64,000 bases of DNA from NCBI RefSeq assembly GCF_041260155.1, contig NC_091933.1, forward strand, positions 28,526,933-28,590,932. Reading direction: 5' to 3'. The position numbers and the translations under genes were made by a program. The notes below the pieces were generated by a model. That model was given only the letters and a program-made list of their open reading frames with translations. It searched no databases and had not been told where the DNA came from. Source of the DNA: Ptychodera flava (lineage: Eukaryota; Hemichordata; Enteropneusta; Ptychoderidae). Below, piece by piece: positions 25,970-60,895 of the stretch (position 1 is its first letter; each line of letters begins with the position of its first letter).

Positions 25970-27443
25970 AACTATATACTACACTATATATTCCAAACTT
26001 TGAAAGCTCATTAGATATGCAAACTATAAATTAGCTGACACGAAAACTTAAGTGCGAAATGACTTTCAATATTGGTGTAACCTGGTATAATTATCAATGT
26101 GCATAGCATGTTATGCCAACTTTGATCAAATAAATGCAAGTATATATCCCTAATTAGGAAAGTTCATTTAATACACAAATTAGGAATTGACTGAAATGTT
26201 CTCATTAAATATGCAAATTATGAATAGGCTGAAGTAAAAATGTTAAATGACTTTCAATAATGTCGTATCATAGTATCTTTAATGTACAAAGTAGTTCATA
26301 AACTTTGGTCTAGTCAAGACAGATAAATATCCTAATTAGGAAAAATAATTAAATTTGCAAATACGGAATCGGCTAAAGTGCTGTATCATAGTATCTTTAA
26401 TGTACATAGCAAGTTTTGTCAAATTTGGTCAGTCAATACAGATAAATATCCCTAATTAGGAAAGTTCATTATATATGCAAATTAGGAATTGGCTGAAATA
26501 ATAAAGTTTCATGATTTTTAATAATGTTGTTTTATAGTATCTTCAATATATGTTGCAAGATTCATCAACTTCGGTCGAATCAATTCAGATATATATCCCT
26601 AATTAGTGAAGTTCATTAAATATGGAAATAAGGAATTGGCTGAAGTAAAACTGCTTAATGACTTTCAACAATGTTATATCACAGTATCTTCAATGTACAT
26701 CGCAAGTTTCATCAATTTTGGTAAAGTCCATTCAGATTTATATATCTAATTAGGAAAGTTTATTAAATATGCAAATAAGTATTTGGCTGAAGTAAAACTG
26801 CTTAATGACTTTCAACAATGTTATATCATAGTATCTTCAATGTACATAGCAAGTTTCATCAATTTTGGTAAAGTCCATTCAGATTTATATATCTAATTAG
26901 GAAAGTTTATTAAATATGTAAATAAGGAATCGGCTGAAGTAGAACTGCTTAATGACTTTCAACAATGTTATATCATAGTATCTTCAATGTACATAGCAAG
27001 TTTCATCAATTTTGGTAAGGTCCATTCAGATTTATATACCTAATTAGGAAAGTTCATTAAATATGTAAATAAGGAATTGGCTGAAGTAAAACTGCTTAAT
27101 GACTTTCAAAAATGTTATATCATAGTATCTTCAATGTACATAGCAAGTTTCATCAATTTTGGTCAAGTCAATTCAAATAAATATCCCTAATTTCAAAAGT
27201 TCATTAAATATGCAAATAAAGAGTTTGATGAAGTAAAAATGCTTAATGACTTTCAATAATGTTAAATCATAGTATCTTCAATATACATACCGAGTTTTGT
27301 CAATTTTGATCAAGTCAAATCAGATATATATCCCTAATCAGGAAAGTTCATTAAATATACAGACAGACAGACAGACACACAGACAGACACACAGACAGAC
27401 AGACATCGCTGCGACATATGCTCACGTGTGTCAACACGTGAGC
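25970..27443 (-). mobile_element. Hairpin-microsatellite-array element, copy A1
   Basis: Read on the minus strand: a GCTCACGTGT...ACACGTGAGC hairpin (27443-27420), a (TGTC)n microsatellite (about 27410-27360), then roughly eight diverged tandem units of ~145 bp. Each unit carries a version of ATTTAATGAACTTTCCTAAT and ACTATGATATAACATT, down to about 25985. No protein is encoded. It is the inverted partner of the copy at 27532-29047, and its distal end is shorter than that copy. Confidence 0.75.
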
Positions 27444-27531
27444 AAAAAATAATCAATGGAAATAAAATACCTATTCAAATAAACAGTTGATTCTAAAAAA
27501 AATCAGTTTTAGCTCATTTTTTGCTCACGTG

Positions 27532-29047
27532 TTCACACACGTGAGCATATGTCGCAGCGATGTCTGTCTGTCTGTGTGTCTGTCTGTGTGTCTGTCTGTC
27601 TGTCTGTATGTGTGTCTGTCTGTCTTTGTGCTCAATATCTCAAAAACGGCTCATCAGATCAGAATCAAATCTGGTACATAGATTCAGTTTGCAAACGGCA
27701 AGAAGTGATTAGTTTTTGGTGGATGTGACTTGCTTACGTTTTGCTCATTTGTATAATTAATGATTTTAGAAAAAACTGATATATATTGAGAAGGACTTCA
27801 CATAATTTGATGAGATTTGTTACCAATGTTGATCGCATCAAGATATATCAGCTGTGAAAGTTATTAAGGGGTGACGCGAAAGGTAATTACTAATTTGCAT
27901 ATTTAATGAAATTTCCTAATTAGGGGTATATATCTTAATGTACTCAATCAAAATTGACGAAACTTGGTATCCTTATTGAAGATACTATGATTTAACATTA
28001 TTGAAAGTCATTAAGCATTTTTACTTCATCCAAATCGTAATTTGCATATTTAATGACCATTCGAAATTAAGGATATATATTTGAATTTACAAAACCAAAA
28101 TTGATGAAACTTGCTATGTACATTAAAGATACTATGATAGAACATTATTAAATGTCATTGAGCATTTTTACTTCAGCCAATTCCTAATTTGCATATTTTA
28201 TGAACTTTCCTAATTAGGGGTATATATCTGAATTGACGAGACCAAAGTTGACGAAACTTGGTATGTACATTAGAGATATTATGAAAGAACATTATTGAAA
28301 GTCATTAAGCATTTGAACTTTAGCCATTCCTTATTTGCATATTTACTGAACTTTCATAATCAGGGATATTTATCTTTATTGACTAGACCAAAGTTGACGA
28401 AACTGGCTATGTACATTAAAGATACTATGATACGACGTTATTGAAAGTCATTAAGCATTTTTACTTCATGCAGCTCCTAATGTGCACATGTAATGAATTT
28501 TTGAAATTAGGGATATCTATTTGAATTTACATGACCAAAATTGATGAAACTTGCTATGTACATTAAAGATACCATTATTGAAAGGCATTAAGCATTTTTG
28601 CTTCGGCCAATTCCTAATTTGTGTATTTAATGAGCTTTCCTAATTAGGGATATATACTTGGATTTATTTGATCAAAGTTGGCATAACATGACTTCCAATA
28701 TTGGTATAACCTGGTATAAATCATCAATGTACATAGCATGTTTCATGTCAGCTAATTTCTGGTTTGCATATCTAATGAGCTTTCAAAGTTTGGAATATAT
28801 AGTTTGAAGGACTTGACAAGAGGCAATTACACTTGCTATATAAAGAGGTGATACAGTGACAGCAGTCAAAGAAATTAATTATTTCTATTTCAGCTAATTG
28901 CGTATTTGAATACTTAATGACCTATAGAGTTAATCTGTGGTGAATAGTGTTCATTATGTTGATCATAATACTTTAAATGAAGTTGCAAACATGTGGCAAA
29001 GGTTCAAATTTACACATCACTGCAATATATAATGAAACACGTGAGCA
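27532..29047 (+). mobile_element. Hairpin-microsatellite-array element, copy A2
   Basis: It begins TGCTCACGTG and ends CACGTGAGCA (29038-29047), so the termini are inverted repeats. Order: hairpin, (TGTC)n microsatellite to about 27625, a core with AATATCTCAAAAACGGCTCA and GATTAGTTTTTGGTGG, then tandem ~145-bp units to about 28720 and a unique tail. It is head-to-head with copy A1 across an 88-bp spacer. The plan recalls satellite-bearing non-autonomous elements described in bivalves and other invertebrates; that placement is inference. The Cys-Leu-Ser-Val repeat frame here is microsatellite. Confidence 0.75.
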
Positions 29048-29407: not shown

Positions 29408-30126
29408 TGTTGTCCTTAGAAGCCGGGTGCCGGGTAAGTAACCCGGCTGTTTTGCATTTTTTCCCCGGCTACTTTTAACGTAGTTAGATTATTTTATAGA
29501 CCAGGTCCTGTTATTGCACTGCCAGCTGTTAGACGGCACACGTACGATTAGCAGTTTCGCGACCCCTTTCCCCCGCATGGCACTGCACAAACATAAAACA
29601 GTTTCTAAATACCCGTTTGTGGCTTTTTGAGCCCGATCTTTTATTTGTTAAATAGTGTTATTGGCTGATGGACGCGCCTATGGTGTTGTCTTTAATTTTT
29701 TACGAGCAGTGTAATTGGTTTGATTGGTATTGTCGTGAATTACATTATTGATTTATATTTTATTGCTATTATTATTGTTTACATTGTTATTCAGTCATTT
29801 CAAGTTCAAACCAGTTGTGTTCTAGTATTACACGCGTTCCTGTGGGAAACTGACACAAACTTTATGGACCAGGCCATTCTAGCCAATCACAACGCAGCCC
29901 GCTAAAATTGTTTTGTCCTACCGAGCCTATAGCATATAAGCACGCATGCCATGTATATTTGGGCTGTCAGCGTGAGCGTGAGCAAGAGAGCACATGTAAG
30001 TCATGTAACAGTACTGCAGTCAATAAACGTGCGTTCCCAGTTACAGTTCAGCCAAGTGTCATTGTCTTGTATCGTCACCCACTCATTGCTGTGAAACGAA
30101 CCCCCTTCCATTGTGGCTCACCCACA
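29408..30126 (+). mobile_element. 5' LTR of a BEL/Pao-type fossil
   Basis: A 719-bp segment starting TGTTGTCC and ending ACCCACA fits an LTR. It has a TATA-like GCATATAAG near 29934 and an AATAAA near 30022, and is followed at 30130 by TGGTGCCGAGACC, a plausible tRNA primer-binding site. The first ~320 bp recurs inverted at 61235-61555. No 3' LTR partner is seen in the window. Confidence 0.65.
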
Positions 30127-31852
30127 ATTTGGTGCCGAGACCAGGATCACAGCCAACCATGCCGACTTTACAAGCTCTACTGAAAAGACGAGAAAAGGCG
30201 AAATTCCTTCTCATCGGACATCTGGAACCGATAGAACAGACAACATCAGACAACATGACACTACCACAACCAAAGCAAAGGATTACCACGAAATCATCAC
30301 TGGGAAACCCACACTCGATCGGAAACTTGAAAGCCTACTGACTGTCTGTCAAGAACTGTACGATCAATTAGACATTTCTCATGCAGAATTCGGAACTACC
30401 GCCGATCTCGAAAGAGCCATCTCCGCCCGATGTTCAAGCGTCGCCGTATTCATTGACACAATCAAAGCTGCTGAACAGGTACGTGTAACCACTCCCGCAC
30501 AAGTCAACACCATTGATACCTCACAACAACCGATTCCCACGCACCAAAATCGACCAGCAACTCCATACAAGACTATACAACTACCAAAATTGGAAATCCC
30601 GATCTTCTATGGAGACTACAGACAGTGGAATCAATTTTTCGATAACTTCCGGTCCGCCATCGATGACAACGAACATTTGTCAGACGTGCAGAAATTCGTA
30701 TACTTGCGCAGTTTCCTCGGAGGTGAAGCCAAACGTACTATCGATGGATTCGCGACCACCGACGCAAATTATGCTACCGCTGTCAAACTACTGAAAGAGA
30801 GGTACGGTCGAACTCAACTCATTATCAACGCACATATGAGATATTTGTGGGAACAACCACCCCCTTCGAACAATCCAGAAAGTTTGCGACAATTTCACGA
30901 TGAACTGGAAACCACGATTCGCGAACTCAACGTCATGGGAAAGAATGAAAACGACTTCGGCGAACTACTCATCCCGATGCTACTCGAGAAATTACCTAAG
31001 GAATTCCAAATGCAACTTGCACGCGGTCGCGACGACGATTCGTGGACTCTATCGGAATTAACCAAAGCCATGACCAAGGAAATTCGCGTATTATCAGTCG
31101 GAAATAAACTCTCGGATCTGTCTACGGTTGATGGAGATACTACCCCCCCCCCCCCCCCCGCGGTTTCTGCATTCTATACGAAAACCGCTCGCGGATCTAA
31201 CCATGCTACCACTGGATTTAACCGCCGGAAATCGCATAATACTACTCCCGCAAAACGATCGCCACCTGCTCAAAGAAAATGCGCGTTCTGCAGCGGACAA
31301 CATTCTCCGAACAATTGTATCAAGATCTCTGAACCAAGTCAAAGACTGGAAATTGTCAAACGCGATCATTTGTGCTTCAACTGTCTAGGTAAACATTCTG
31401 CGAACTATTGTAAATCCAGATTCACTTGCCGTGTGTGTAAACAGCGACATCATACCGCCCTTCATGATGACAGCAAGGTACGTTCAAGCTCTCCAAACTC
31501 GGACTCAAAGACTAACCAGGCGAGCGTCAACTTCACACACGCGTCACGTGATTCCACCTCTACGGGACATGTGTCTCCTCCTCGCCGCATACTGTTGAAG
31601 ACTGCGAAAATCCGCGCCAGTTACAGAGGTAAAGAAGCCATCGCTAACGTACTATTCGATGAAGGCGCCGACCGATCATTCGTTACCAAGCGATTTGCCA
31701 AATCACTCAACGCAAATGTGCATAACACTGAACTTTTGAAACTGAAATCGTTCAACAACTCGCAAGCCGACTACACGTCCGTTCCTGCTACATCACTCAG
31801 GGTTCTCAAAAATTTTGAAGTAGGCGGAAAATTCAGAAAAGTAGGCGGTTAG
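30113..31852 (+). mobile_element. BEL/Pao gag-protease fossil, broken
   Basis: Directly after the LTR and primer site, the translated region shows a gag core of the DUF1759 type (FYGDYRQWNQFFDNF, then FLGGEAKRTIDGF). Two zinc-knuckle-like Cys/His clusters follow (CAFCSGQHSPNNC and CFNCLGKHSANYC), then the start of a BEL-type aspartic protease (peptidase A16 region, LLKTAKIRASY). Reverse transcriptase, RNase H, integrase and 3' LTR are absent: the element passes into unrelated repeat sequence at about 31805. It is a broken 5' remnant with at least two breaks. Conservation of the gag text suggests moderate rather than great age. Confidence 0.8.
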
Positions 31853-32110
31853 CTTCTGTGTGCAACCAGGTTCCCTGAGCAGGGGGGGGGAGAGGTGTGG
31901 TGTGGTGTTTAAGTATTTTTTTTAAATTGAAGACATTTCTGAGCAATTTCATGCATTCTTATACAGTGTATAAAAGGCTATTCCAACATACACACAGGGG
32001 GCGGGTTTCAGGGACGGGGTCCCCCGTCTCTGTGACCAAGAAATTTTTAAATTTTGAAGTCACTTTGGAGTAATTTTATGCATTCTTGTACAGTATTAAA
32101 GACCATTTCA
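31806..32110 (+). repeat. AGTAGGCGG repeat and tandem duplication
   Basis: GAAGTAGGCGGAAAATTCAG and a second AAGTAGGCGG mark the junction at the end of the BEL/Pao remnant. A related AGTAGCCGG repeat lies at 33420-33490. Between 31915 and 32110 a segment with TTTCATGCATTCTTATACAG recurs once after ~130 bp as a diverged tandem copy. Confidence 0.5.
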
Positions 32111-32676
32111 GCAAAAAAGAATAATCATTACCATAGTCAATTACAACATGTTTTCAAGGGATAAAGTTTTTAAAAAACGTCAGAAAAATTAATTTGATCA
32201 TTCGGGCCTGTCAACTGCATTCAGTTGACAAGGATAATAGCAAAATTTCACCAGACTGTAGTGTAGAATTATGTTTAGCTCATGACTTGAACAAACATTT
32301 TGAAATACATCATAGAATAGGGGTTTTCACAACCCAGAAAACGATCCGCTGGAATCCTGGCCACCCTAGCTGTACAAAGTTTTTGACTGATTTAAATAAA
32401 CTTGATTGAAGATACAGTAAAATCAAACAGTTTATTCAATTCAATGAATTATAGGAACACAATTTTCAGTAATTTTAATTCACAGTACTAATTTCACAAT
32501 AAAACGAATCCGCGAGCTGATTATTGATTTTTTGGTGATGTTGAATATAATTGAAAAAGAGAGGTAAATTTCAGTGTTCATGTTTGATAAAACCTCAAAC
32601 TAACGACACCGAACGCCAGCCTGTACTACACCGTGTGTGTACAAAGCACCGGCAGTCAATTGTAACACAGTACACA

Positions 32677-33090
32677 CAACGCGATATCGGTCGACCTGAA
32701 ATTTGACACTGTGATCGACGTAGCGTTTCAAAAGTACGAAAAGTGAGACCAAGTAATTTTTTGTTTATTTAGATTTGATCTAAACCTCCCAAAACCAACA
32801 GACAAAGTCCTTCTCTTACGCAGAAAATCAAAGTTTTCAAGCGTCGACTTTCTCTTCCGCGATACACACAACCACGGCCCCTCCACAAAACGCGATGTCG
32901 ATCGACTTGAATATTGGCATCGTGATTGACCATGGATGGATTGACATGACGTTTCAAAGTATGAAAAATGAGACTCAGTAACTTTTGGTCGCTTTAGATT
33001 TGATCAAAAACCTACCAAGCCATCAGACAAGGTCCTACTCTTGCGCAGAGAAACCAAAGCTCTCAAGCGTCGACTTTCTCTTCCGCGTTT
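32677..33090 (+). repeat. 226-bp tandem duplication
   Basis: CAAGCGTCGACTTTCTCTTC occurs at about 32839 and 33065. The preceding ~190 bp also matches (ACGCGAT.TCG.TCGACTTGA, TTTAGATTTGATC, CAGACAA.GTCCT.CTCTT). Two moderately diverged copies upstream of the transposase-derived gene. Confidence 0.65.
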
Positions 33091-33780
33091 GAGAAACAAA
33101 AGTCGGCTTCATTCGGAAATGGTCGGCTATTCGCGGGCATAACGTAATTGTATGTAAGTCCAATTTTCGGCTATACCCGATGTGAACGTCGGAATAATTC
33201 GGCCTGTGATCGGGCAAGCGAGGTTGACCTCGAGAGCGGCCCAGTATGAGTACAACACGTTCGCTGATCGCGGTACTACAGTGATAGCAACAAGTTCACC
33301 GCGTAAATTGCTAGACTACATGATATAGCCACATCGGCACTTCTGAAATATTATCTCCGGCTTGCAAGACCACCAAAAAAATCAAAATATTGTTATCAAA
33401 ACCAGAATTTCAGGGCCAGAGAGCGATACAGTGCTGAAAAGTAGCCGGCCAAAATACGAAAGTAGCCGGTCAATTTGGCCGGCATCCGGCTAAAAATGAA
33501 CACGCTGATCATTGCAACTACACTGCTGACTCGCAGCGATTTTCCAAGGTTGGAACTGATTGGTTGGTGTGTGTGAGTGACAGGCTCCGCCCCAACGGTT
33601 TTAGGATAGCGCGCAATCCCAATCCTTGTGGAGCCAGCCCCAAGAGCTGGAACTTTTGACATTATTTTCATGACTTTACATTCAAACCACGATTTGTCCC
33701 TGTAGATGAACTTACTATGGGCGTGCATACGCGTATCATCGACCTTCGTTCGTGACTGGACGTTTATTCACAGATTCAAC

Positions 33781-36700
33781 ATGGCGTCGTCCATCGCTAA
33801 GCGTGGACGGGGCCCGCGCGGACACCCTGTTACTACGAGCTCGGCAAAAAAGCGAAGGCAGCTGCGTGGCAATGCATTGAAGCGTCAATGCAAGATATAC
33901 ATCGGCAACCAGATCACAAGATGGCAGGATTTAAAGGATGAACTGGGCCTTTCTAATCCCGATTTGGCGGCAGAATTGATCGACAGGTAAGGGTAATGAT
34001 AGCTGCAAAATTGTAGCTCTACGATGAGGCGGTCGGTGAGTTTTGGTTTTTGCGACCTCGCTCACCAGTAGAGCTACAATGCCGAAGGCCCTGAAGCATA
34101 CAAAATAAGCACGCTGCACATGGCACGGCATTTTGATGTAAAATCCCATATATTTACTGCATTTGGTCATACTGATTTATCACTATTGAAGATTAAACAC
34201 TATACTACACTAACCTTGTCGTGTATGGGGTTTGGTATTTGTTCAAATACGTCGATCGCGTTCCAAAAACATTTCTTTGAGCCGCCATTACCAACTTCCG
34301 GTAATGGCGGCTCCCAGAAGCACGCTCAATGTTTATGGAACGTGATCGACATGTCTGTGCTAATACCAAACCCCATAAACGACAAGGTTAGTGTAGTATA
34401 GTGTTTAGTCTTCAGTAGTGATAAATCGGTACGACCAAATGCAGTAAATATGTGGGATTTTACATGAAAATGCCGCGCCGTGAGTGGCGCGCTTATTTTG
34501 TATGCTACAGGGCCTTCGGCATTGTAGCTCTACTGTTGCTGCAGTACAGTAGCTCGAGGTTTTGCCTGGGTATTTGGGTCGGACGGCCGTCCGACCCAAA
34601 TACCCAGGCAAAACCTCGAGGTACTGTACTGCAGCAAGCTCTACTGGTGAGCGAGGTCGCAAAAACCCAAACTCACCGACCGCCTCACCGTAGAGCTACA
34701 ATTTTGCAGCTAGGGTAATGAGACAGTGTGAGAGTGCGGCCCGACGCGTCTAGCGTTAATACTAAGTTCACATAATTTGTGCCTCGGGGACACATCGTTC
34801 TTCGTAGTCTGAACATTTTCATGGTTTCTAAGCCAACCATGATTCCTGCCCAGTATATTTCGGTCCCAAACGCTTCGTCACCGCATGGAGGTAGTAGAGA
34901 CCGGGACCCAAGACGTTTTGGCACTGCTTTGTTTCGAGTTAGGTGCGGAATTGTGTCTTTTCCTGAAAGCCATTTCTAAACTACGTGTATTCCCTATGGG
35001 AGCTAAACTAGCTAAAAACGATAAACATGACAAAAAAAACGATAATTATCACTTTCTAAATAGCGCTCAAAGTTTAGAAATTAGCTGTAGTTTAGAAAGT
35101 TTAGAAAGTCAGGCCTTAGGTTGAAATTTTTTTCCAAGGATATATCGGATAAAAACGATAATTATCACTTTCTAAATAGCGTTCTAAGTTTAGAAAATAG
35201 CGGAAGTTTAGAAAGTCGGGCCTTAGGTTGGAAATTTTTTCCAAGGATATATCGGATAAAAACGATAATTATCACTTTCTAAATAGCGCTCAAAGTTTAG
35301 AAATTAGCTGTAGTTTATAAAGTTTAGAAAGTCGGGCCTCAGGTTAAAAAAATTTTTCCAAGGATATATCGGATAAAAACGATAATTATCACTTTCTAAA
35401 TAGCGTTCTAAGTTTAGAAATTAGCTGAAGTTTAGAAAGTCGGGCCTTAGGTTGAAATTTTTTTTCCAAGGATATATCGGATAAAAACGATAATTATCAC
35501 TTTCTAAATAGCGTTCTAAGTTTAGAAATTAGCTGAAGTTTAGAAAGTCGGGCCTTAGGTTGAATTTTTTTTTCCAAGGATATATCGGATAAAAACGATA
35601 ATTATCACTTTCTAAATAGCGCTCAAAGTTTAGAAATTAGCTGAAGTTTAGAAAGTCGGGCCTTAGGTTGAAATTTTTTTCCAAGGATATATCGGATAAA
35701 AACGATAATTAGCTGTAGTTTATAAAGTTAAGAAAGTCGGGCCTCAGGTTAAAAAAATTTTTCCAGGATATATCGGATAAAAACGATAATTATCACTTCT
35801 AAATAGCGTTCTAAGTTGAGAAATTAGCTGAAGTTTAGAAAGTCGGGCCTTAGGTTGAAATTTTTTTCCAAGGATATATCGGATAAAAACGATAATTATC
35901 GCTTTCTAAATAGCGTTTCTAAGTTTAGAAATTAGCTGTAGTTTATGATATGTTTGATGAAAACGTTGGTTCAGCATTTGGTTTTAAATGTGTATTTTTT
36001 CCCATTGTTTCAAGGGAAAATATGTGAGCTTGTAGCGTTCTAAGTTGAGAAATTAGCTGAAGTTTAGAAAGTCGGGCCTTAGGTTGAAATTTTTTTCCAA
36101 GGATATATCGGATAAAACGATAATTATCACTTTCTAAATAGCGTTCTAAGTTGAGAAATTAGCTGAAGTTTAGAAAGTCGGGCCTTAGGTTGAAATTTTT
36201 TCCAAGGATATATCGGATAAAAACGATAATTATCACTTTCTAAATAGCGCTCAAAGTTAGAAATTAGCTGTTGTTTAGAAAGTTTAGAAAGTCAGGCCTT
36301 AGGTTGAAATTTTTTTTCCAAGGATATATCGGATAAAAACGATAATTATCATTTTCTAAATAGCGTTCTAAGTTTAGAAATTAGCTGAAGTTTAGAAAGT
36401 CGGGCCTTAGGTTGAAATTTTTTTCCAAGGATATATAGGATAAAACGATAATTATCACTTTCTAAATAGCGTTCTAAGTTTAGAAATTAGCTGAAGTTTA
36501 GAAAGTCGGGCCTTAGGTTGAAATTTTTTTCCAAGGATATATCGGATAAAAACGATAATTATCACTTTCTAAATAGCGCTCAAAGTTTAGAAATTAGCTG
36601 TAGTTTATAAAGTTTAGAAAGCCGGGCCTTAGGTTGAAATTTTTTTCCAAGGATATATCGGATAAAAACGATAATTATCACTTTCTAAATAGCGCTCAAA

Positions 36701-39700
36701 GTTTAGAAATTAGCTGTAGTTTATAAAGTTTAGAAAGCCGGGCCTAAGGTTGAAATTTTTTCCAAGGATATATCGGATAAAAACGATAATTATCGCTTTC
36801 TAAATAGCGTTCTAAGTTTAGAAATTAGCTGTAGTTTATGATATGTTTGATGAAAACGTTGGTTCAGCATTTGGTTTTAAATGTGTATTTTTTCCCATTG
36901 TTTCAAGGGAAAATATGTGAGCTTGTAGCGTTCTAAGTTGAGAAATTAGCTGAAGTTTAGAAAGTCGGGCCTTAGGTTGAAATTTTTTCCAAGGATATAT
37001 CGGATAAAAACGATAATTATCACTTTCTAAATAGCGTTCTAAGTTGAGAAATTAGCTGAAGTTTAGAAAGTCGGGCCTTAGGTTGAAATTTTTTTCCAAG
37101 GATATATCGGATAAAAACGATAATTATCACTTTCTAAATAGCGCTCAAAGTTTAGAAATTAGCTGTTGTTTAGAAAGTTTAGAAAGTCAGGCCTTAGGTT
37201 GAAATTTTTTTTCCAAGGATATATCGGATAAAAACGATAATTATCATTTCTAAATAGCGTTCTAAGTTTAGAAATTAGCTGAAGTTTAGAAAGTCGGGCC
37301 TTAGGTTGAAATTTTTTTCCAAGGATATATAGGATAAAAACGATAATTATCACTTTCTAAATAGCGTTCTAAGTTTAGAAATTAGCTGAAGTTTAGAAAG
37401 TCGGGCCTTAGGTTGAAATTTTTTTCCAAGGATATATCGGATAAAAACGATAATTATACATTTCTAAATAGCGCTCAAAGTTTAGAAATTAGCTGTAGTT
37501 TATAAAGTTTAGAAAGTCGGGCCTTAGGTTGAAATTTTTTTTCCAAGGATATATCGGATAAAAACGATAATTATCACTTTCTAAATAGCGTTCTAAGTTT
37601 AGAAAATAGCTGAAGTTTAGAAAGTCGGGTCTTAGGTTGAAAATTTTTTCCAAGGATATATCGGATAAAAACGATAATTATCACTTTCTAAATAGCGTTC
37701 TAAGTTTAGAAAATAGCTGTAGTTTAGAAAGTTTAGAAAGTCTGGCCCTAGGTTGAAAAAATTTTTCCAAGGATATATCGGATAAAAACGATAATTATCA
37801 CTTTCTAAATAGCGTTCTAAGTTTAGAAAATAGCTGTAGTTTAGAAAGTCGGGCTTGGAGTGGAAAAAGTTTCCCCAAGGATATATCAGATAAAAACGAT
37901 AATTATCACTTTCTAAATAGCGCTCAAAGTTTAGAAATTAGCTGTAGTTTATAAAGTTTAGAAAGTCGGGCCCCAGGTTAAAAAAAATTTTCCAAGGATA
38001 TATCGGATAAAAACGATAATTATCACTTTCTAAATAGCGTTCTAAGTTTAGAAATTAGCTGAAGTTTAGAAAGTCGGGCCTAAGGTTGAAATTTTTTTCC
38101 AGGATATATCGGATAAAAACGATAATTATCACTTTCTAAATAGCGTTCTAAGTTTAGAAATTAGCTGTAGTTTAGAAAGTCGGGCTTGAAGTGGAAAAAG
38201 TTTCCCAAGGATATATCGGATAAAAACGATAATTATCACTTTCTAAATAGCGCTCAAAGTTTAGAAATTAGCTGTAGTTTATAAAGTTTAGAAAGTCGGG
38301 CCCTGGTTAAAAATTTTTTTCCAAGGATATATCGGATAAAAACGATAATTATCACTTTCTAAATAGCGCTCAAAGTTTAGAAATTAGCTGTAGTTTATAA
38401 AGTCGGAGCTTGGGCCAGTGGAAAAATTTTCCCAAGGATATATCGGATAAAAACGATAATTATCACTTTCTAAATAGCGCTCAAAGTTTAGAAATTAGCT
38501 GTAGTTTATAAAGTTTAGAAAGTCGGGCCCCTGGTTAAAAATTTTTTTCCAAGGATATATCGGATAAAAACGATAATTATCACTTTCTAAATAGCGCTCA
38601 AAGTTTAGAAATTAGCTGTAGTTTAGAAAGTCGGGCTTGGAGTGAAAAAGTTTCCCAAGGATATATCGGATAAAAACGATAATTATCACTTTCTAAATAG
38701 CGCTCAAAGTTTAGAAATTAGCTGTAGTTTATAGAGTTTAGAAAGTCGGGCCCCAGGTTAAAAAATTTTTTCCAAGGATATATCGGATAAAAACGATAAT
38801 TATCACTTTCTAAATAGCGTTCTAAGTTTAGAAATTAGCTGAAGTTTAGAAAGTCGGGCCTTAGGTTGAAAATTTTTTCCAAGGATATATCGGATAAAAA
38901 CGATAATTATCACTTTCTAAATAGCGTTCTAAGTTTAGAAATTAGCTGAAGTTTATAAAGTCGGGCCTTAGGTTGAAAATTTTTTCCAAGGATATATCGG
39001 ATAAAAACGATAATTATCACTTTCTAAATAGCGTTCTAAGTTTAGAAAATAGCTGTAGTTTAGAAAGTTTAGAAAGTCTGGCCCTAGGTTGAAAATTTTT
39101 TTCCAAGGATATATCGGATAAAAACGATAATTATCACTTTCTAAATAGCGTTCTAAGTTTAGAAAATAGCTGTAGTTTAGAAAGTCGGGCTTGGAGTGGA
39201 AAAAGTTTCCCAAGGATATATCGGATAAAAACGATAATTATCACTTTCTAAATAGCACTCAAGTTTAGAAATTAGCTGTAGTTTATAAAGTTTAGAAAGT
39301 CGGGCCCCAGGTTAAAAAAAATTTTCCAAGGATATATCGGATAAAAACGATAATTATCACTTTCTAAATAGCGTTCTAAGTTTAGAAATTAGCTGAAGTT
39401 TAGAAAGTCGGGCCTTAGGTTGAAATTTTTTTTCCAAGGATATATCGGATAAAAACGATAATTATCACTTTCTAAATAGCGTTCTAAGTTTAGAAAATAG
39501 CTGCAGTTTAGAAAGTCGGGCTTGGAGTGGAAAAAGTTTCCCAAGGATATATCGGATAAAAACGATAATTATCACTTTCTAAATAGCGCTCAAAGTTTAG
39601 AATTAGCTGTAGTTTATAAAGTTTAGAAAGTCGGGCCCCAGGTTAAAAAAAATTTTCCAAGGATATATCGGATAAAAACGATAATTATCACTTTCTAAAT

Positions 39701-42700
39701 AGCGTTCTAAGTTTAGAAATTAGCTGAAGTTTAGAAAGTCGGGCCTTAGGTTGAAATTTTTTTTCCAAGGATATATCGGATAAAAACGATAACTATCACT
39801 TTCTAAATAGCGTTCTAAGTTTAGAAATTAGCTGAAGTTTAGAAAGTCGGGCCTTAGGTTGAAATTTTTTTTCCAAGGATATATCGGATAAAAACGATAA
39901 TTATCACTTTCTAAATAGCGCTCAAAGTTTAGAAATTAGCTGTAGTTTATAAAGTTTAGAAAGTCGGGCCTCAGGTTAAAAAAATTTTTCCAAGGATATA
40001 TCGGATAAAAACGATAATTATCACTTTCTAAATAGCGTTCTAAGTTTAGAAATTAGCTGAAGTTTAGAAAGTCGGGCCTTAGGTTGAAATTTTTTTCCAA
40101 GGATATATCGGATAAAAACGATAATTATCACTTTCTAAATAGCGCTCAAAGTTTAGAAATTAGCTGTAGTTTAGAAAGTTTAGAAAGTCGGGCCTTAGGT
40201 TGAAATTTTTTTTCCAAGGATATATCGGATAAAAACGATAATTATCACTTTCTAAATAGCGTTCAAAGTTTAGAAATTAGCTGTAGTTTAGAAAGTCGGG
40301 CCTTAGGTTGAAAATTTTTTCCAAGGATATATCGGATAAAAACGATAATTATCACTTTCTAAATAGCGCTCAAAGTTTAGAAATTAGCTGTAGTTTATAA
40401 AGTTTAGAAGTCGGGCCCCAGGTTAAAAAATTTTTCCAAGGATGTATCGGATGAAAACGATAATTATCACTTTCCAAATAGCGTTCTGAGTTTAGAAATA
40501 AGCTGAAGTTTAGAAAGTCGGGCCTTAGGTTGAAATTTTTTTTCCAAGGATATATCGGATAAAAACGATAATTATCACTTTCTAAATAGCGTTCTAAGTT
40601 TAGAAATTAGCTGAAGTTTAGAAAGTCGGGCCTTAGGTTGAAATTTTTTTCCAAGGATATATCGGATAAAAACGATAATTATCACTTTCTAAATAGCGCT
40701 CAAAGTTTAGAAATTAGCTGTAGTTTATAAAGTTTAGAAAGTCGGGCCTCAGGTTAAAAAAAATTTTCCAAGGATATATCGGATAAAAACGATAATTATC
40801 ACTTTCTAAATAGCGTTCTTAGTTTAGAAATTAGCTGAAGTTTAGAAAGTCGGGCCTAAGGTTGAAATTTTTTTCCAGGATATATCGGATAAAAACGATA
40901 ATTATCACTTTCTAAATAGCGTTCTAAGTTTAGAAATTAGCTGTAGTTTAGAAAGTCGGGCTTTGAGTGGAAAAAGTTTCCCAAGGATATATCGGATAAA
41001 AACGATAATTATCACTTTCTAAATAGCGCTCAAAGTTTAGAAATTAGCTGTAGTTTATAAAGTTTAGAAAGTCGGGCCCCAGGTTAAAAAAATTTTCCAA
41101 GGATATATCGGATAAAAACGATAATTATCACTTTCTAAATAGCGTTCTAAGTTGAGAAATTAGCTGAAGTTTAGAAAGTCGGGCCTTAGGTTGAAATTTT
41201 TTTCCAAGGATATATCGGATAAAACGATAATTATCGCTTTCTAAATAGCGTTCTAAGTTTAGAAATTAGCTGTAGTTTATGATATGTTTGATGAAAACGT
41301 TGGTTCAGCATTTGGTTTTAAATGTGTATTTTTTCCCATTGTTTCAAGGGAAAATATGTGAGCTTGTAGGAGTAGTCTCGTAGAACCAGGAAAATACTAT
41401 TAGTTTCCCAAAGAAGTAATTTTTAAAATGCGAAGCTCAAATATGACTTATCCAATAGACCACCGAGATAGTCTACTTCCTATAAAATTTACCATTGGGC
41501 AAGAAGTTTAAAGTTACTAAGTAGGGAAATGTGACAGTGAGTAAGCACAAACACAATTTGTGAGGAGTAATTGTAAATGTTTTGTTTTGTCCCTCAAAAA
41601 CAAAGTCTGTCGAATAACCACCCGGCTATTGCTTATGACAAATAAACCAGTTGTGTGTCTTGAAGACAAATGTAATACCGTAAAAGTAACCAGACTGCCA
41701 CAGTTCAAATGACCAAGGTGTGTAGGGATTATCTTAGTTCCACGACAGGAGCAGATTAAGTAATGATGCAAATTAATGCTAATGGCCTTATCAAACGTGT
41801 TGCCCCTGTGGTTGCCATCACCTGGCAGCTGCGTGCTCGCAGTAAAATATGGCGTCATTAAGAAATCCGGGCCTGAAGTGAAACTTTTTTCCAGAATAAA
41901 TCGGATGAAAATCTGCGAGCTTGTAGCAGAATTATTGTAGAACCAGGAAAATACTATCAGTTTTCCCTGAAGTAAGTTTTACAATCGAAATCTCAAATGT
42001 GATGCCCGAGATACTATACCTTCTGCTCATTGCATTAGGCAAGAAGTATAATGTTACGAAGTAGAGAAATATGACAGTGAGTCAGCTTAAAACAAAATTT
42101 GTGAAGAAAATTGTAAATGTTTGTTTTTCAAGGTCTGTCAAGCAACCTCCCGGCTAGTGTATATGCAAATAAACCAGCTGTGTGACGTGAAGACGAATGT
42201 AAATAAAAGTGACCATATTGCCAAACTTAAATGACCAAGGTGTGTTGAGATTATCTTTGTCCACAACGATCGCGTCCATGTGTGCAGATTAATGCAAATT
42301 TATGCTAATGGTCTTATCAAATGTGTTGCCGGCCAGGCCGCCATCTTCCAGCTGCGTGCTCACAGTAAAAGATTGAATCATTCAGAAAATGGGGCCTGAA
42401 GTGAAAACAATTTTTCCTTGATATATCGGATAAAAACGATAATTATCGCTTTCTAAATAGCGTTCTAAGTTTAGAAAATAGCTGTACTTTAGAGAGTCGG
42501 GGTTGGAGTGGAAAAGGTTTTCCAAGGATATATCGGATAAAAACGATAATTATCGCTTTCTAAATAGCGTTCTAAGTTTAGAAATTAGCTGTAGTTTAGA
42601 AAGTCGGAGTCAGTGGAAAACATTTTCGAAGGATATATCGGATAAAAACGTTGGTACACCATTTCTGTTGTCATCTGTATATGCCCTAGTGTTTCAAGGG

Positions 42701-45700
42701 GAAAAGTGTGAGCTTGTAGGAGCAGTCTTGTAGAACCTGGAAAATACAATCAGTTTTCCCCAGAAGCAAGTTCTAAAAGCCAAAGCTGAAATGTGACTTG
42801 TCCAATAGACCGACGAGATAGTACCTCCAAATTAATGCATTGGCCCTATCAAAAGTGTTGCCGGCCAGGCTGCCATCTCCAGGCTGCGTGCTCACAGTGA
42901 AATGTGGAGTGCGTGAGATGAAGTCCCGCAAACTTTTCAAGAATATGTCGGAAAAAAAGGCTGATACAACGTTTCTGTTGTCATCTGTATATTCCCAAGT
43001 GTTTTTATTAAAGTAAAAAGTGTGAGTATGTAGGAGTTTTCTTGTAGAACCCGGAAAATACTATCCGTTTCCCCCAGAAGTAAGTTTTAAAATCCAAAGC
43101 TCAAATGAGCTTGTCCAATAAACCAAAAATGGAACAATACTACCACAGTTCTAATGACCAAGGTGTGTTCAATTACGATCGCGCGCGTCAATTTGTGCTT
43201 CAAGTTAATGCTAATGAGGCATTGATAAGGCTATTAGCATTAATTTGCACCACAATGGACACGATTGTCGTGGAACTATCTGACCCTCTTCTTGTCTGTG
43301 TCTGAACACACCTTGGTCATGCGAATTGTGGCAGTATGGTTATTTACATTCGTCTTCACGTCACACATCTGGTTTATTTGTCATTAACACTAGCGGTGGC
43401 TATTTGACAGTCTTTGTTTTTGACGGTCAAAGAATAAACATTCACAATTTTTCGTCATCGCTCACTCAGAGCCACATTTCTTACTTCATGACATTCAATT
43501 CTTGCCCGTTGCAATGGTCAATTCAATAAGGGGTGCTTTTCTCGCGAGTTTATGGAAAAAAACATTTGAGCTTTGGATTTGCCGCTTGGCAAAACTGATA
43601 CAGTATTTTCCTGATTCTATCCGACATATCCTCGAACAAATTTTTTTCACTCAAGACCCGATTTTCTAAACTTCAGCTAATTTCTAAACTTAGAACGCTA
43701 TTTAGAAAGTGATAATTATCGTTTTTATCCGATATATCCTAGAACAATTTTTTTCAGCCAAGGCCCGACTTTCTAAACTTCAGCTAATTTCTAAACTTAG
43801 AACGCTATTTAGAAAGTGATAATTATCGTTTTTATCCGATATATCCTTGGGAAAAAATTTTAACCTAAGGCCCGACTTTCTAAACTACAGCTAATTTCTA
43901 AACTTAGAACGCTATTTAGAAAGTGATAATTATCGTTTTTATCCGATATATCCTTGGAAGAAATTTTTCACCCAAGGCCCGACTTTCTAAACTTCAGCTA
44001 ATTTCTAAACTTAGAACGCTATTTAGAAAGTGATAATTATCGTTTTTATCCGATATATCCTTGGGAAAAAATTTTTAACCTAAGGCCCGACTTTCTAAAC
44101 TACAGCTAATTTCTAAACTTAGAACGCTATTTAGAAAGTGATAATTATCGTTTTTATCCGATATATCCTTGGAAAAAAATTTTCAACCTAAGGTCCGACT
44201 TTCTAAACTTCAGCTAAACTTCAGCTAATTTCTAAACTTAGAACGCTATTTAGAAAGTGATAATTATCGTTTTTATCCGATATATCCTTGGGAAAAAATT
44301 TCAACCTAAGGCCCGACTTTCTAAACTTCAGCTAATTTCTAAACTTAGAACGCTATTTAGAAAGTGATAATTATCGTTTTTATCCGATATATCCTTGGAA
44401 AAAAAATTTCAGCCAAGGCCCGACTTTCTAAACTTCAGCTAATTTCTAAACTTAGAACGCTATTTAGAAAGTGATAATTATCGTTTTTATCCGATATATC
44501 CTTGGGAAAAAATTTTAACCTAAGGCCCGACTTTCTAAACTACAGCTAATTTCTAAACTTAGAACGCTATTTAGAAAGTGATAATTATCGTTTTTATCCG
44601 ATATATCCTTGGAAAAAAATTTTCAACCTAAGGTCCGACTTTCTAAACTTCAGCTAAACTTCAGCTAATTTCTAAACTTAGAACGCTATTTAGAAAGTGA
44701 TAATTATCGTTTTTATCTGATATATCCTCGAACAAATTTTTCACCAATGCCCGACTTTCTAAACTTCAGCTAATTTCTAAACTTAGAACGCTATTTAGAA
44801 AGTGATAATTATCGTTTTTATCCGATATATCCTTGGAAAAATGTTTTCACCCGAGGCCCGACTTTCTAAACTTCAGCTAATTTCTAAATTTAGAACGCTA
44901 TTTAGAAAGCGATAATTATCGTTTCTGGCTAAACTTTCTAAGTTTAGATTTAGATTTAGACAATTCTAATTTAGCTTTCTAAACTTCCAGCTAAACTTTC
45001 TAAAAACGATAAAAACACAATTCCGCACCTTAATGTTTGTTTCCGATTGGGCTACCATGTACTACTGAACCGTGTTTGCAAAGAATATACACATTTGCCA
45101 ACCACGTCTACACAGCAGGCCGACAATAAACGTGTGCCAAACAAACGATTTTTTTCCCGAATTGTGTAATTCGTATGTACTGTATCTATCATGTGGTTTA
45201 GTCACGGCTGTATCCATGCATGCATGGATGTAAAAAATAGACACCCATGATCCATGTAGCTCTGCGTGGCGGGGCTGTGTGTTAGTACTGTTGTTACCAC
45301 CGTATACTGTAACGCTGGTAACACAGCCCTGCCATGCAGAGGCTACAGTATATCATGCTACAGCGCAGGTCCGAAGGCAAACTAAGGTTATGCTCGCTAA
45401 AAATTTGACCGCTGTGGTTAAAAGAGTCGGCAAAAAAACCCCACGGGACAAGATAAAAGGTTAGAGAAGAATACTTAGCATTTTAAATAATTTGGTGAAA
45501 AATCATTGAAATATCGGAAACAACTGTCTAAACATCATGGGTCCAAGTTCCAATTTAAATGTAAAACAGTGTCTCCAAATCTAACCGAAAGCTTTTCGTA
45601 TGTTATACAGCTTCATGAAATTTTTGTCAACAAGAATTCGATCAAAACTTACAACATAGCAATTCACAGCGCACTTGAAATTTCTTACCTTTTTTTTTTA

Positions 45701-48700
45701 AAAAAAAAGAACATTATGGGAAGGGGCGGCTGATTGATCGCTAAAATAACATGTACATTTTATAAGGCATTTGTAACATATTTTGGTTTCCATTTTTTCA
45801 TAAATTACTTCAGTTATCACAGGACCAGGAGTCATGAAGTGTTGCCGGAACAAGCATTACCACCTGTAAATGAGCCTTCTTCCTCTAGGACAATTAGGCC
45901 TTCAGCATCACCCCATATAATTGAGCAACTATATGAGTTGTCTAGTACATCATCAGTTTCATCTGGTCATGGGTAAGATATCATTTCACTTCTTTGTGTA
46001 ATGTTAAATGTAACTGGTAGACATTTTACTGTAATGGAAAGATGAATAACAACAAACAAGAATAGTTGTTTGTTCAGTCATTATGGTAGCTGTACAATGT
46101 TCAAATTTTCAAACAAAGAAGTGTTATTTGTTTATGAGAAATCTGTGCAGCTGTATGATCAACAAAGTAGACAGTGTATGCTGTTGACAGCTGAGGTACT
46201 AGAACTGACAACGTAGTAATGATCTGGTCTCAGTGGCTTTTACATAATAACTTGATTCCATTTATTTCTATTTCAGAAGAAAAAATGTGCCAAAACAGCC
46301 CACATCATCAACGCCAGCAGGTCAGCAACTGACTGCAAGTACATTTAAAATGTCTGAGATGTCTGAAGAGATGTCTTCCATTGTATCCACAAGATAAACA
46401 TTGTGTAATGAACTTCTCATGGCCCTGGTGTACATGTTTGTGAAGGAAACAGAACTCCAAGCAATAGGATAGAAATCACGTTAAACCACTGTATCCTGCA
46501 GCTGTAGTTTAAATATTACCAACAAAGAAAAGTAGTTAACTGAACTAGATGTACTTGTTGGACAGATCAAAAGTATCTTTTACTCAAATTGGTGTCTGCT
46601 CATATGCATGTGAATTTAAATTTCTCTGAAAGTCACAAAATTTCCGTGAAAGTCAAAAATCTTTTCCATTGTAAATGTTTTCTGTTTGTTCAAAGTTACC
46701 TATGCCAAGTTAGATAATTATGTATGAATTATTTCCTGTGCTTGGGTATGCTTACAATGTCTTTTCATGTTTTTAATCCAGTGACATGTTGATGTCAGGA
46801 GTGGAGGAAATGCAAGACAAGGAACACCAAACAGAAACAGAACCAACAACAAGGTACATAAGCTCAATTTATTTTAGTGTCACTCTACATAATTTCTAGA
46901 ACACACTAAATAACTTCTACAACAATATGTAATCTTTTGTGACATCCAAATGACGAATGTAACTATTTAACTTCCACATTGCAGTGCTAGTGGCAGAATG
47001 GGAAGAGGAAAAAAGAGTACCATATCAGAATCTTTTGTGGACCCATTTGAGTAAGTCCTTTTAGTATTTTGAAAGAAAAGACAATAAGTAGTATGACAAC
47101 AGACCGGCATATCACTAATATAAGCTTTATCAATATTGTTGATTACTTTAATATTGTTCAACACTTTGGAAGAGATATATATTTCGTGATATATGTACTG
47201 ACTATTTTAATAGTTGCACAATTTGCCTTGTGATAATCATGACATTATGTGATTCACCTCCAGTGTGAGTATAGATGAGACAATTGATCCAACCAATGAT
47301 TATGATCATATTGATCTGTCATACTATGATGGAGATCCGGATTATGAACCAAGCTTCAATATAACTATACAGTAAGTAAAACAATTTATTGTACAAGGGT
47401 TTTGTCAGGTGTACGTAGCTGGCTACAAATTGGTCTTGTACAAAGAGGGCACATGGTGTGTAACATAACCATGACACTGGTCTGCCATAACTGCTGTTGG
47501 GACACTATGATATACATGCATTTGTGTTTGCATATCTTTGCTATAGCCTGAAGTTCATGCATGTAATGTTCATAAGGTTCAAAATCCTTAAAATTCATTG
47601 AATTTTCAAACACTATTACAAAGATGAAGTTTACCACAAGAAATCATGTCAAATTGATATGTCTACATGTGCTGATACAATATGTTGATTTGAGTAGTGA
47701 CAACACTTCCCTGCAATAAATCCTGGAAAAATTTAATTTTCTATTGTGGCACTTTTACACAATTGAAAATCTGGGTAATGTTTTCAATGCAGGGCATAAT
47801 TTTAATCGCAAACAGACTACTTATCCATCATTAGCAACACATTAGTAAATACATCGTGCTAAACAACTCTTATCATAATTTGAAATTTGAAATTAGCATG
47901 TATATTGATACTTCTCACAGGTCCCATGGAATTGACATGGAAGACTTTCCATCTGACCATTCAGAGTTTGATGACAGAAGTGATGAAGACACCTCTCCCA
48001 ATACACAGGAACAAGGAGAATTGGGCATAACAGGAGTGAGAAGTGAGGCAGATGTTAACAGACTTATTGAAGAGGACTTTTATTTGATAAGCCTTGGCCA
48101 ATTATTGTTGTTGGCCGAAGCTGAACTTAAGTCAACATGCAGCAACTTAGACTGTAAAGGAATGCTGACCATTTCAACAAACACGGTAGGGTCAGCACTG
48201 TATCTATCATTGGTATGTACATTGTCTTTGACACTTATGTAATACTTTGATTCATTCAGTGGCACTTAAAGTCACGGGCCTTTCAGACTATTCTACTTTA
48301 AACTGGGTACAAGGTGACGTGCAATGACATACATAACATACTACAGACTTAATGTCCTCATGACAGCATGGCTCTCATCACGCTAGGAAGATTGACGTAT
48401 ACAGTGTTCACTGCTGTTATGTAAAGAATTTTGACTAAGTCATAATTACTGTGGATTCATGTTGTTACAGCCATATTATACATAGGTGAAGTATCAGGCC
48501 ATTCACATCCTAACAGTTTTAAACATCTTGTGAATTTACATAACTGTAACAAACCCTGTAGGTTCAACACTTCTCCATGTCTGTTATCAATACAGACACA
48601 AATTTCATCAATGTGATCACAGAAATAGCTGGACAGAGACTACAGAACTGTATACGTGAACGTTCAATATGTATGTTGCATGCCTGTGAAAGCAGCTGTA

Positions 48701-51700
48701 AATCCAACGAAAAACACAGGCCATTCCCTATATCAAAGATAGATCAGGGCCTGTTTTGTGATCTAAGGGGTTGCTGTGTGAATATCTTGTTAAATCCTGT
48801 ACAAGATTCTGAGTTTGATCATAATGTTCATATGTCCAGAGTACATAGTATTATACAAATCTGTAGTTACAAACAGAGGTAATGTTAAACTTATCTTGAT
48901 ACTTTATTGTAGGTATGCCCTTCTGGTCATGTAGAATACAAGTGGTGCTCACAGCCCCTTCTCAAACGACGGCTTCACAGTGGAGACCTGCTTACATCGG
49001 CCTCCATACTGATGTCCGGAAACAATTACAGCAAAATTGCTTTATTTGCCAAGATGTTAAGGTTGAAGATAGTCAGTAGTAGTACATTCTTCAAAATACA
49101 GCGGCACTATCTAGTTCCATGTGTGGATGAATATTGGCTTTCACATCAACAGGAAATACTTACCAAGTATCAAGATCAGGAGATTGTTATTCTTGGTGAG
49201 TAACGGTTACTGTAGTGACTGTTACTGTAGGACAGAGTACCGTACTATACACATTTGTCTTCGTCCAACATGCATTCTATGTCATTTAAGAAAAATTTGT
49301 GCATTGAATAGACATGGCGCAATCCTAATGACAATGCACATTGACTGAGATTTGATTATCACAAATTATTGAGAAATTTGCTTATAGGAATACGTATTCA
49401 TTGCTCTTAAAGTAGTAAAATTTTACACTCAGTGTAATTGTGGTATATCTGCTTATTTTACGATATCACAAGGTGATGGAAGAATGGACTCTCCTGGATA
49501 CTGTGCACAGTACTGTACATACACTATCATGGAAAACGAATCCAAAGACATTTGGGAGATTGTAACCATAGACAAACGTCAAACTGACAAAAAATCAACC
49601 ATCATGGAAAGAGCAGCATTTCAAGAAGGGTTAAACCAGCTCCGTGATAAGGGACTGCAGATAAAAGAAGCAGTAACAGATGCCCACACTCAAATTGCAT
49701 ACCTGATGAGTAAGTTTGATAAATATTTCTCTTTTTAACTACCATATAAACAACAGCAAATCAACCTGCTTTTTTAAGTTGTTTCATCATACTAATATTT
49801 AACTGTAAAATTAACTACCGGTAGTCAGAATTAAAAAGAGCGTGTAACAGCTTTCATGATAAATGAACTGTGTTCTTGATAACAAGAACATGACAACATG
49901 AAATAATTCAGTTGATATTGATCATATGTTGTTGCAGTCATAGCCAAGATGAGGGACTTAAAGGTTTGTTCATCCGTCTTTATCGTAAACCATCACTAAG
50001 ACATCATATCACTCAATTCCTACCTCTTTGTTGTACTTTTTCATATAGCCAAACATTACACAAATTTAGCTACATTTATTCCACTAGTACTTGGAACATC
50101 AGCAGTGCACATACTTTCCCAGCCATTTTCCCAAATTCACTTCATCATGATTGCTGTCACCATGACAACTTCTGATGATGCTTTTGAAATTAATGAAAAG
50201 GGTGACTATGTCATTTACAATAACTTGTCTATTAAGTATGTAAAGGCAAGTCATAGGTTACTACATAGCTAATCCTGCAATGCATGAACCTATGCTGTAG
50301 ATGAAACACTGAGCACCTTCTTATTGGCAGTTAATCCTTCCTCTATCTCTTTTTGTGTAGAGACCACATACCCTGGTATCACACATTCATTTGATATATG
50401 GCATGCTGCCAAGAACCTTGGGAAAAAAATAACGAAGGTTTGTTGCTGTTGCAATGTTAAATCATAGGTATATGTTTGTCATTTTTCATCAAGAATGATG
50501 CATCACTTGGTTTGAATTAGCTGTCCTCTGTAGTGTGAGCTGCTGCTATACATGCAATAATGCTTAGTTATTTATGCCACCATAAAGCCCATTTCACATA
50601 CAAATAATTTTTTCCCTGACACCTACATTTTAATATACATGTACTGATATCTTAAATCGTTGTCAGTAAAGTGTTATCTTTTATGAGGATTGAGTCAAGT
50701 TTTTCTTTTATCTGCTTTCAAGGCTGGTCAGCAGAAGAACTGTAAAGCCCTTCAGAAATGGAGCAGGCATATCAGGAATCATTTTTGGTATTGCTGCCAA
50801 AAAGCTTCAACTTATGAAGAGTTCCTGGTAAGAGTGTATGAATGCCTTTTGAAATACAAAACGTTCAATTATTTCTGTTGATGGAAATCACACTTAGCAG
50901 TCCACTCGTATGGACATTATTTGGCCAAAGAAACAGAGTGAGGGAGGAGTGTTGCCGTACACATTTTCAATCTTATTATTCCCCCAGGACAGTGTCCGTG
51001 GGGACTTACAGGTTTGGTAATATCTGTGCGTGCATGTGTGCATGCGTGCGTGCGTGCGTCCGTTCACGCAGATATCTCGGAGATGCCTGGAGCTATTTAA
51101 TTCAAACTTGGTTCAAGGATTACTTTATATGTCATACATATGCACGTTGATTTGTTTTGTGATAAGATCCAATATGGCTGCCGTAGGCCATTTTGTTACG
51201 ATTTTTTCATGTATGGAGCCATAACTCAGACATATTTCCACCAGTATCATTCAAAGTTGGTACAGGGACATTGACCTATTTCATACATATGCACATCAAT
51301 TTGTTTCATGGCATGTAGCATTATCATGTCAATTACTGAAGTTTCGTAATTAGGCCGTTATATCAAGAAATACTGCATCAAATTTCATGAAACTTGGTAC
51401 AGATGTTAAGCTCACATTACTTTAACAGTGAAAAAGACATTTACCAGTGTCATTTTAATTATTTGTAATTGCATAAGTAATGAACTTTCCTAATTTGAGT
51501 GATATATCTACAAATACTGTGTCAAATTTGATGAAACTTGGTACAGATGTTGGTCTCGTAATGTTGTAAATACTGCATCAAACGTTATAAAATATAGTAC
51601 TGGTGATAATCTGTCAGTGTTACGATAGGATGCAATAATATTTCTAATTGACTCATTTAATGACCTTTTGTAATTAGGATGGCGGCCTACATTGGTTTTA

Positions 51701-57905: not shown

Positions 57906-58018
57906 ATGCAGGTAATGTGGCTTAATGGGGGTGATTTAAAATATATTGTAGAAGATTAGGACAATATGCCAGGGAAAAATGAATGCTAAAGTTCCAGCTT
58001 TAGGGGCTTTACTTAAGC
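57906..58018. other. Spacer before telomere-like tract
   Basis: No feature recognised. It leads into the CCCTAA-type tract. Confidence 0.3.
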
Positions 58019-58078
58019 CTAACCCTATAACCCTACACCTAACCCTAACCCTAACTTAAGCCTAACCCTAACCCTAAC
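58019..58078 (+). repeat. Interstitial telomere-type repeat, short
   Basis: About ten imperfect CCTAAC/CCCTAA units in 60 bp, the complement of TTAGGG. Confidence 0.85.
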
Positions 58079-58095
58079 CATCGGAAATACGTATC

Positions 58096-60704: not shown

Positions 60705-60895
60705 CGACCTAACCCTAACCGTAACCCTAACCCCTAACGCTAACTAACCCTAAGTTATGCCGTTACGATTTTCCCACCCTTGGCCTAACCTCCAGGGTTG
60801 AGAGCGAAGTGGGCCTAAGACTTTTTACCAGAGAAAACCTAACCTCTAACCCTAAACCTAACCCCTAACCCTAACCGTAACCGCAGATCGCAGTT
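60705..60895 (+). repeat. Interstitial telomere-type repeats
   Basis: Two clusters of CCTAACCCTAA/CCTAACCGTAA units (60708-60760 and 60836-60885) separated by a non-repeat stretch. They abut the GCGACATGCGAGTT-type repeat shared with 29096-29390. Confidence 0.85.

Follow-up and report, generated by a model that had tools for sequence, protein, structure and literature searches.

A 10-kb foldback element with satellite arms and TTA flanks in the hemichordate Ptychodera flava

The stretch of Ptychodera flava DNA considered here (64,000 nucleotides of contig NC_091933.1, positions 28,526,933 to 28,590,932, hereafter the window) holds, at 34942-45029, a single 10,088-bp unit whose two arms are inverted arrays of one satellite. 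We suggest that this unit is likely one insertion of a non-autonomous foldback DNA transposon that moved in the fashion of PIF/Harbinger elements, and that its satellite derived from the element itself.

Layout of the element

Read inward from the left, the element consists of a 15-bp end, a 78-bp terminal domain, 6.2 kb of satellite and a 2.3-kb core; past the core follow 1.3 kb of inverted satellite, a 90-bp terminal domain and the second 15-bp end. Its parts, together with the flanking copies of the target-site duplication (TSD), are as follows.

34939..34941, no strand: TTA, left TSD copy (flank check)
34942..34956, plus: left 15-bp terminal inverted repeat (TIR), GGTGCGGAATTGTGT (exact)
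34957..35034, plus: left terminal domain with monomer-like words (8-mer sharing)
35035..41280, plus: left arm, 107/117-bp satellite, about 56 copies (Tandem Repeats Finder and monomer comparison)
35946..36035, plus: 90-bp core-edge fragment in the left array, 100% identical to 41280-41369
36839..36928, plus: second 90-bp core-edge fragment in the left array, one 893-bp period onward, 100% identical
41281..41906, plus: core unit 1
41907..42436, plus: core unit 2, 73% identical to core unit 1
42420..42650, plus: satellite island in the core, about 2 monomers (Tandem Repeats Finder, 2.2 units)
42618..43204, plus: core units 3 and 4, shortened
43205..43619, minus: inverted core unit (alignment to core unit 1)
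43618..44924, minus: right arm, the same satellite inverted, 12 copies
44925..45014, minus: right terminal domain with monomer-like words (8-mer sharing)
45015..45029, minus: right 15-bp TIR (exact)
45030..45032, no strand: TTA, right TSD copy (flank check)

The arms are of the foldback type, being long, inverted, built of tandem repeats and unequal (6.2 kb versus 1.3 kb). Tandem Repeats Finder placed 56.1 copies of a 107-bp unit at 35097-41279 and 12.0 copies of the reverse-complement unit at 43618-44924, in agreement with the array sizes, about 6.2 kb in one orientation and about 1.3 kb inverted, given by an earlier sequence-only reading of this DNA. The foldback plan proposed there, with sharp, transposon-like ends to the array and TTA on both sides, is confirmed as a structure. 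The internal block of about 1.9 kb described in the same reading has to be revised, since the stretch between the arms runs from 41281 to 43617 (2.3 kb) and is made of repeated units with 2.2 satellite units among them, rather than of one block.

A unit of some 0.6 kb makes up the core: it is present in three to four decayed copies in direct orientation and, at about 43205-43619, once inverted, and roughly two satellite monomers lie between core units. Across 374 aligned bases, gaps excluded, the inverted unit agrees with unit 1 at 80.5% (69.5% when gaps are counted), and the foldback turn falls near 43205-43220. A search of the core in six frames gave no Pfam family at E values up to 1, and we therefore take the element to be non-autonomous. 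The near flanks, also searched in six frames, contained no conserved domain in 31800-34940 or 45033-49992.

Inverted duplications are a known type of assembly artefact, and a false palindrome could arise from a read joined to its own reverse complement. We regard such an origin as very improbable, given that the arms differ in length and in their variants, that the inverted core is about 80% identical to its counterpart at aligned bases, and that the 2-kb flanks have no similarity better than E 1.7.

The ends and their TTA flanks

When two or fewer mismatches were allowed, the terminal 15-mer GGTGCGGAATTGTGT had exactly two sites in the window, both of them exact (34942-34956 on the plus strand and 45015-45029 on the minus strand); two matches were obtained in 0 of 100 shuffles. 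TTA stands directly outside each end, and the match between the flanks stops at 3 bp. The sequence-only reading had named these exact inverted termini and their TTA flanks, and we find them at these two places in the window and nowhere else in it. With the A of TTA added to the 15-bp terminus, the exact inverted match at the ends reaches 16 bp, and an inverted exact match of at least 16 bp occurred in 1 of 17,527 random pairs of 200-bp windows taken outside the arrays and at least 3 kb apart. The probability that two random flanks would both be TTA, or both TAA, is about 0.0009. A scan for end pairs around the satellite junctions, which took pairs with four shared terminal bases and a flank match of at least 2 bp, returned this pair as the best (18 of 20 bp plus TTA). 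Chance is thus an unlikely origin for the ends and their flanks.

These results also bear on another account, in which an ordinary satellite array suffered an internal inversion and the inverted ends and TTA are coincidental. Uneven arms would be in keeping with such an inversion, and exact inverted pairs of at least 13 bp at distances of 1-12 kb do occur elsewhere, with 19 outside the arrays if the present one is included. However, this end pair sits at both edges of the satellite and nowhere else in the window, is bordered by TTA and came first in the junction scan, and the terminal domains resemble the monomer while the flanks do not (see below). We consider a mere inversion quite improbable. 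In the scan of inverted pairs outside the arrays the pair ranks second, behind a longer pair of 26 bp at 58508/59858; a 15-bp low-complexity pair is also present there. The 26-bp pair is exact, with its members about 1.35 kb apart and 3-bp flanks that do not match, and possibly marks the ends of another element.

The interpretation of 34942-45029 as one inserted transposon has to be held against several observations. The 19 inverted pairs just mentioned show that such matches are not confined to the element, the TSD has just 3 bp, and inward of the 15-bp ends the two terminal domains are poorly alike. A transposase with these ends was not seen. One copy is in hand: comparison of the element with the remainder of the window gave no significant match, only three short hits with E values of 0.16 or worse. 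Finally, the TIR begins with G(N)5GAA, which departs from the G(N)5GTT motif used to mine Medicago; that motif was the mining condition of one plant survey and is not treated here as defining for animals (PMC2213677, in the part available to us). The structural reading is nevertheless well supported.

As to the superfamily, PIF/Harbinger elements are described in the same source as having TIRs of 14-25 bp and TTA or TAA as TSD (PMC2213677). The copy described here has TTA at both ends and an exact TIR of 15 bp, within a range that was set for autonomous elements. Mobilization of the PIF/Harbinger type, as the sequence-only reading had suggested, therefore fits in TSD and in TIR length, and because the fit rests on a single copy we treat membership in this superfamily as probable rather than proven. 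Superfamilies are defined by their transposase, of which none was found in the core, and the foldback Galileo belongs to the P superfamily; the element could accordingly be a foldback from some other DNA transposon superfamily, its TTA match being partly luck. This seems unlikely to us. Foldbacks of the Mutator type have longer TSDs, 8-10 bp in general and in Tetris, and 9 bp in Tm1, against 3 bp here, and the window itself provides a foldback that does carry a 9-bp TSD, so that the Mutator-type and 3-bp kinds can be told apart. That neighbor, at 34000-34712 and about 230 bp from the 10-kb element, has 24-bp exact ends and the 9-bp duplication GGGTAATGA; its right part contains a nested 102-bp palindrome (34536-34637) with a 9-bp duplication of its own, GCTCTACTG.

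Origin and growth of the satellite

The satellite monomer occurs in a 117-bp variant beside the 107-bp form. Its words recur in the terminal domains: the left domain has nine 8-mers in common with the monomer (0.61 expected) and the right domain 24 (1.49 expected), with 0 of 2000 simulations as high in either case. For 7-mers the counts were 12 against 2.25 expected on the left (3 of 2000 simulations as high) and 36 against 4.39 on the right (0 of 2000). The flanks just outside the element share no 8-mer with the monomer. Given terminal domains that are monomer-like and flanks that are not, the monomer looks like amplified subterminal sequence of the element itself.

An alternative for the origin of the array is that an older TIR element captured a genomic satellite that already existed and that then expanded inside the element, as has been proposed for miDNA4 of Xenopus in a published capture model (PMC12628747, as far as the source was available). 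Against this stand the monomer words in the terminal domains and the monomers and monomer-like pieces held by the core, which favor an origin from the element itself and are not decisive with one copy. We consider capture rather unlikely.

The motif TTTAGAAA or its complement was found 156 times in the left arm, 36 times in the right arm and five times in the core, with one and two occurrences in the terminal domains and seven in the remaining window. By analogy, these motifs may be extra transposase-binding sites, because the arm repeats of Galileo are bound by the THAP domain of its transposase. Galileo, from Drosophila, resembles the present element in its long, internally repetitive TIRs with bound repeats, and differs in belonging to the P-element superfamily and in having a known transposase (PMC3688188, in part). 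A hairpin predicted for the monomer is suggestive only (z -1.89; 8 of 200 shuffles fold equally well). An exact satellite word had no match in viral contigs or in GTDB genomes, two collections unsuited to animal repeats, and strings from the element had no match in the text of the open-access literature.

Growth of the arms has left its own marks. In the left arm a block of 893 bp is duplicated (872 of 881 aligned bases identical, 99%, with 24 gap columns), and an exact copy of the first 90 bases of the core is found within the left array, about 5.3 kb from the original. Ahead of this captured core edge, the first copy matches at 179 of 179 aligned bases (four gap columns) and the second at 166 of 171 (20 gap columns); at the break, TAG is common to core and monomer. 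The right arm likewise contains a repeated block, about 440 bp long, whose copies agree at 420 of 428 aligned bases (98%, with 25 gap columns). The 893-bp duplication and the captured core edge indicate that the array grew inside the element and that the left arm was duplicated recently.

To these duplications can be added variants that differ between the arms. After three of 66 intervals (229, 227 and 1211 bp) were dropped, 53 monomers were assigned to the left set, two of which come from the core island, and ten to the right. GCTCAAAGTT was present in 19 of 53 left-set and 0 of 10 right monomers (p 0.025), AAAGTTTAGAAAG in 17 of 53 and 0 of 10 (p 0.050), and GAAGTTTAGCTGAAG in 0 of 53 and 2 of 10 (p 0.023), all p values being uncorrected. 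A monomer length of at least 115 bp was seen in 19 of 53 and 2 of 10 (p 0.47, likewise uncorrected), such that three of the four features differ at p 0.02-0.05 and length does not. Together with the duplications inside the arms, these arm-specific variants show that each arm has had recent duplications of its own. Arm growth through internal duplication, part of the sequence-only reading, is thereby borne out by the 893-bp block, the captured core edge, the right-arm block and the variants.

The arms have remained similar overall. Over these monomers, mean identity is 0.916 between arms, 0.914 within the left set and 0.932 among right-arm monomers, and the longest inverted match between the arms, among the matches listed (25 of 784 pairs), is 334 nt at 96%. 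In a tree, right-arm monomers cluster, with four changes versus a mean of 9.4 after shuffling, and 0 of 500 shuffles went as low. The tree test does not reject one clade for the right arm (p 0.348). Some monomers of opposite arms are 98-99% alike, whereas the inverted core copies are about 80% alike, a contrast that could point to gene conversion between the arms. The contrast is weakened by the chance that the inverted core is a diverged paralogue, and by the tree, in which separate arms are not rejected.

We propose a sequence of events along these lines. A PIF/Harbinger-type transposase supplied by another element would have cut and pasted the element into a TTA site; subterminal sequence with TTTAGAAA and its complement would have been amplified into the 107-bp unit; and the arms would later have lengthened and shortened via unequal exchange or template switching, giving 6.2 kb on one side and 1.3 kb on the other.

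Neighboring features and known systems

Other repeats and two open reading frames (ORFs) share the window. A second foldback satellite, of different sequence, lies at 25983-28803, where 147-bp repeats in both orientations surround (ACAG)n/(TGTC)n; it has a near-perfect hinge (27357-27450 with 27516-27609, 99%), and inverted outer ends that match each other lie at 25983 and 28803, where no TSD was seen. At 4869-5448 is a 580-bp near-perfect palindrome (98%) with TTACT on both sides. An open gag-like ORF at 30095-31852 contains DUF1759, a domain that we take to be typical of BEL/Pao retroelements, and, across 89% of its length, has 93% identity with a protein of Ptychodera flava. An ORF with a P2RX7_C domain (55367-55738, minus strand) has 79% identity, likewise across 89%, with another protein of this species. 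The two matches by themselves place the window in P. flava or a relative. Short interstitial TAACCC repeats, of telomere type, are found at 58014-58079, 60708-60753 and 60838-60882.

Among foldback transposons, FB of Drosophila and TU of sea urchin have arms of nested tandem repeats, as here; they differ in their longer duplications and in belonging to other superfamilies, and they are likened to the present element by description, not by sequence. The sequence-only reading took them for the nearest known plan. Two other systems are closer, MtPH-A6-4 and Tetris, and the idea is therefore less new than was assumed there. The comparisons that follow draw on those parts of each source that were available to us.

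In MtPH-A6-4, a PIF/Harbinger subfamily of Medicago truncatula, tandem repeats of 60 bp, in 2 to 35 copies, are present in 18 of 23 members, and some have repeats at both ends in opposite orientation (PMC2213677). The repeats were also found at 27 other sites, and each of these retained, on one side or both, residual homology to the end of the transposon (PMC2213677). The likeness lies in tandem repeats that are placed subterminally, run in opposite orientation at either end and have a repeated short motif within; the difference, in a plant host, a 60-bp unit and putative autonomous elements, and here too the comparison is by description rather than sequence (PMC2213677). The P. flava element, for its part, is known from one copy in an animal host and has some 68 copies of a 107-bp unit in its arms. 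Tetris of Drosophila virilis is a non-autonomous foldback with flanking, tandem-repeat (TIR-220), inner and middle domains, whose flanking domain has a stretch in common with the repeats and whose arrays expanded into satellite; it differs in its 8-10 bp duplications, its suggested Mutator membership, its 220-bp unit and its arms of at most 1,735 bp (PMC4079207). In Vaccinium, HARB-N1_VCo and HARB-N7_VMa are non-autonomous Harbinger elements, mostly with TAA/TTA duplications, whose terminal part was multiplied into the satellite VaccSat7, with the difference that three to five units lie near the 3´ end and that foldback is not described in the text examined (PMC7290377). Further routes from transposon to satellite have been reviewed (PMC12628747).

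Among the matches listed for the open-access literature, partly available as it was, we found this element described nowhere, and likewise no PIF/Harbinger foldback with satellite arms from an animal and no hemichordate case of satellite growth tied to a mobile element. A word search of the main text of the P. flava genome paper, as available, found neither Harbinger nor satellite, tandem repeat or inverted repeat (PMC11175523).

It is tempting, and quite tentative, to think of an animal family of PIF/Harbinger foldbacks in which amplification of a putative subterminal transposase-binding motif builds satellite in the arms, 10-kb blocks are carried to new TTA sites, and exchange between arms keeps them alike. 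Such an element might then be a source of dispersed satellite, as the sequence-only reading had proposed. If our interpretation is true, satellite growth would be tied to a mobile element in a hemichordate. Several steps can be followed in one molecule, namely the monomer-like terminal domains, the monomer island in the core, the growth of the arms and the capture of the core edge. The element is a well-preserved further example of a known plan, with similar ones in a fruit fly and a clover-like plant, and it offers a concrete test of foldback arms as satellite nurseries in animals.

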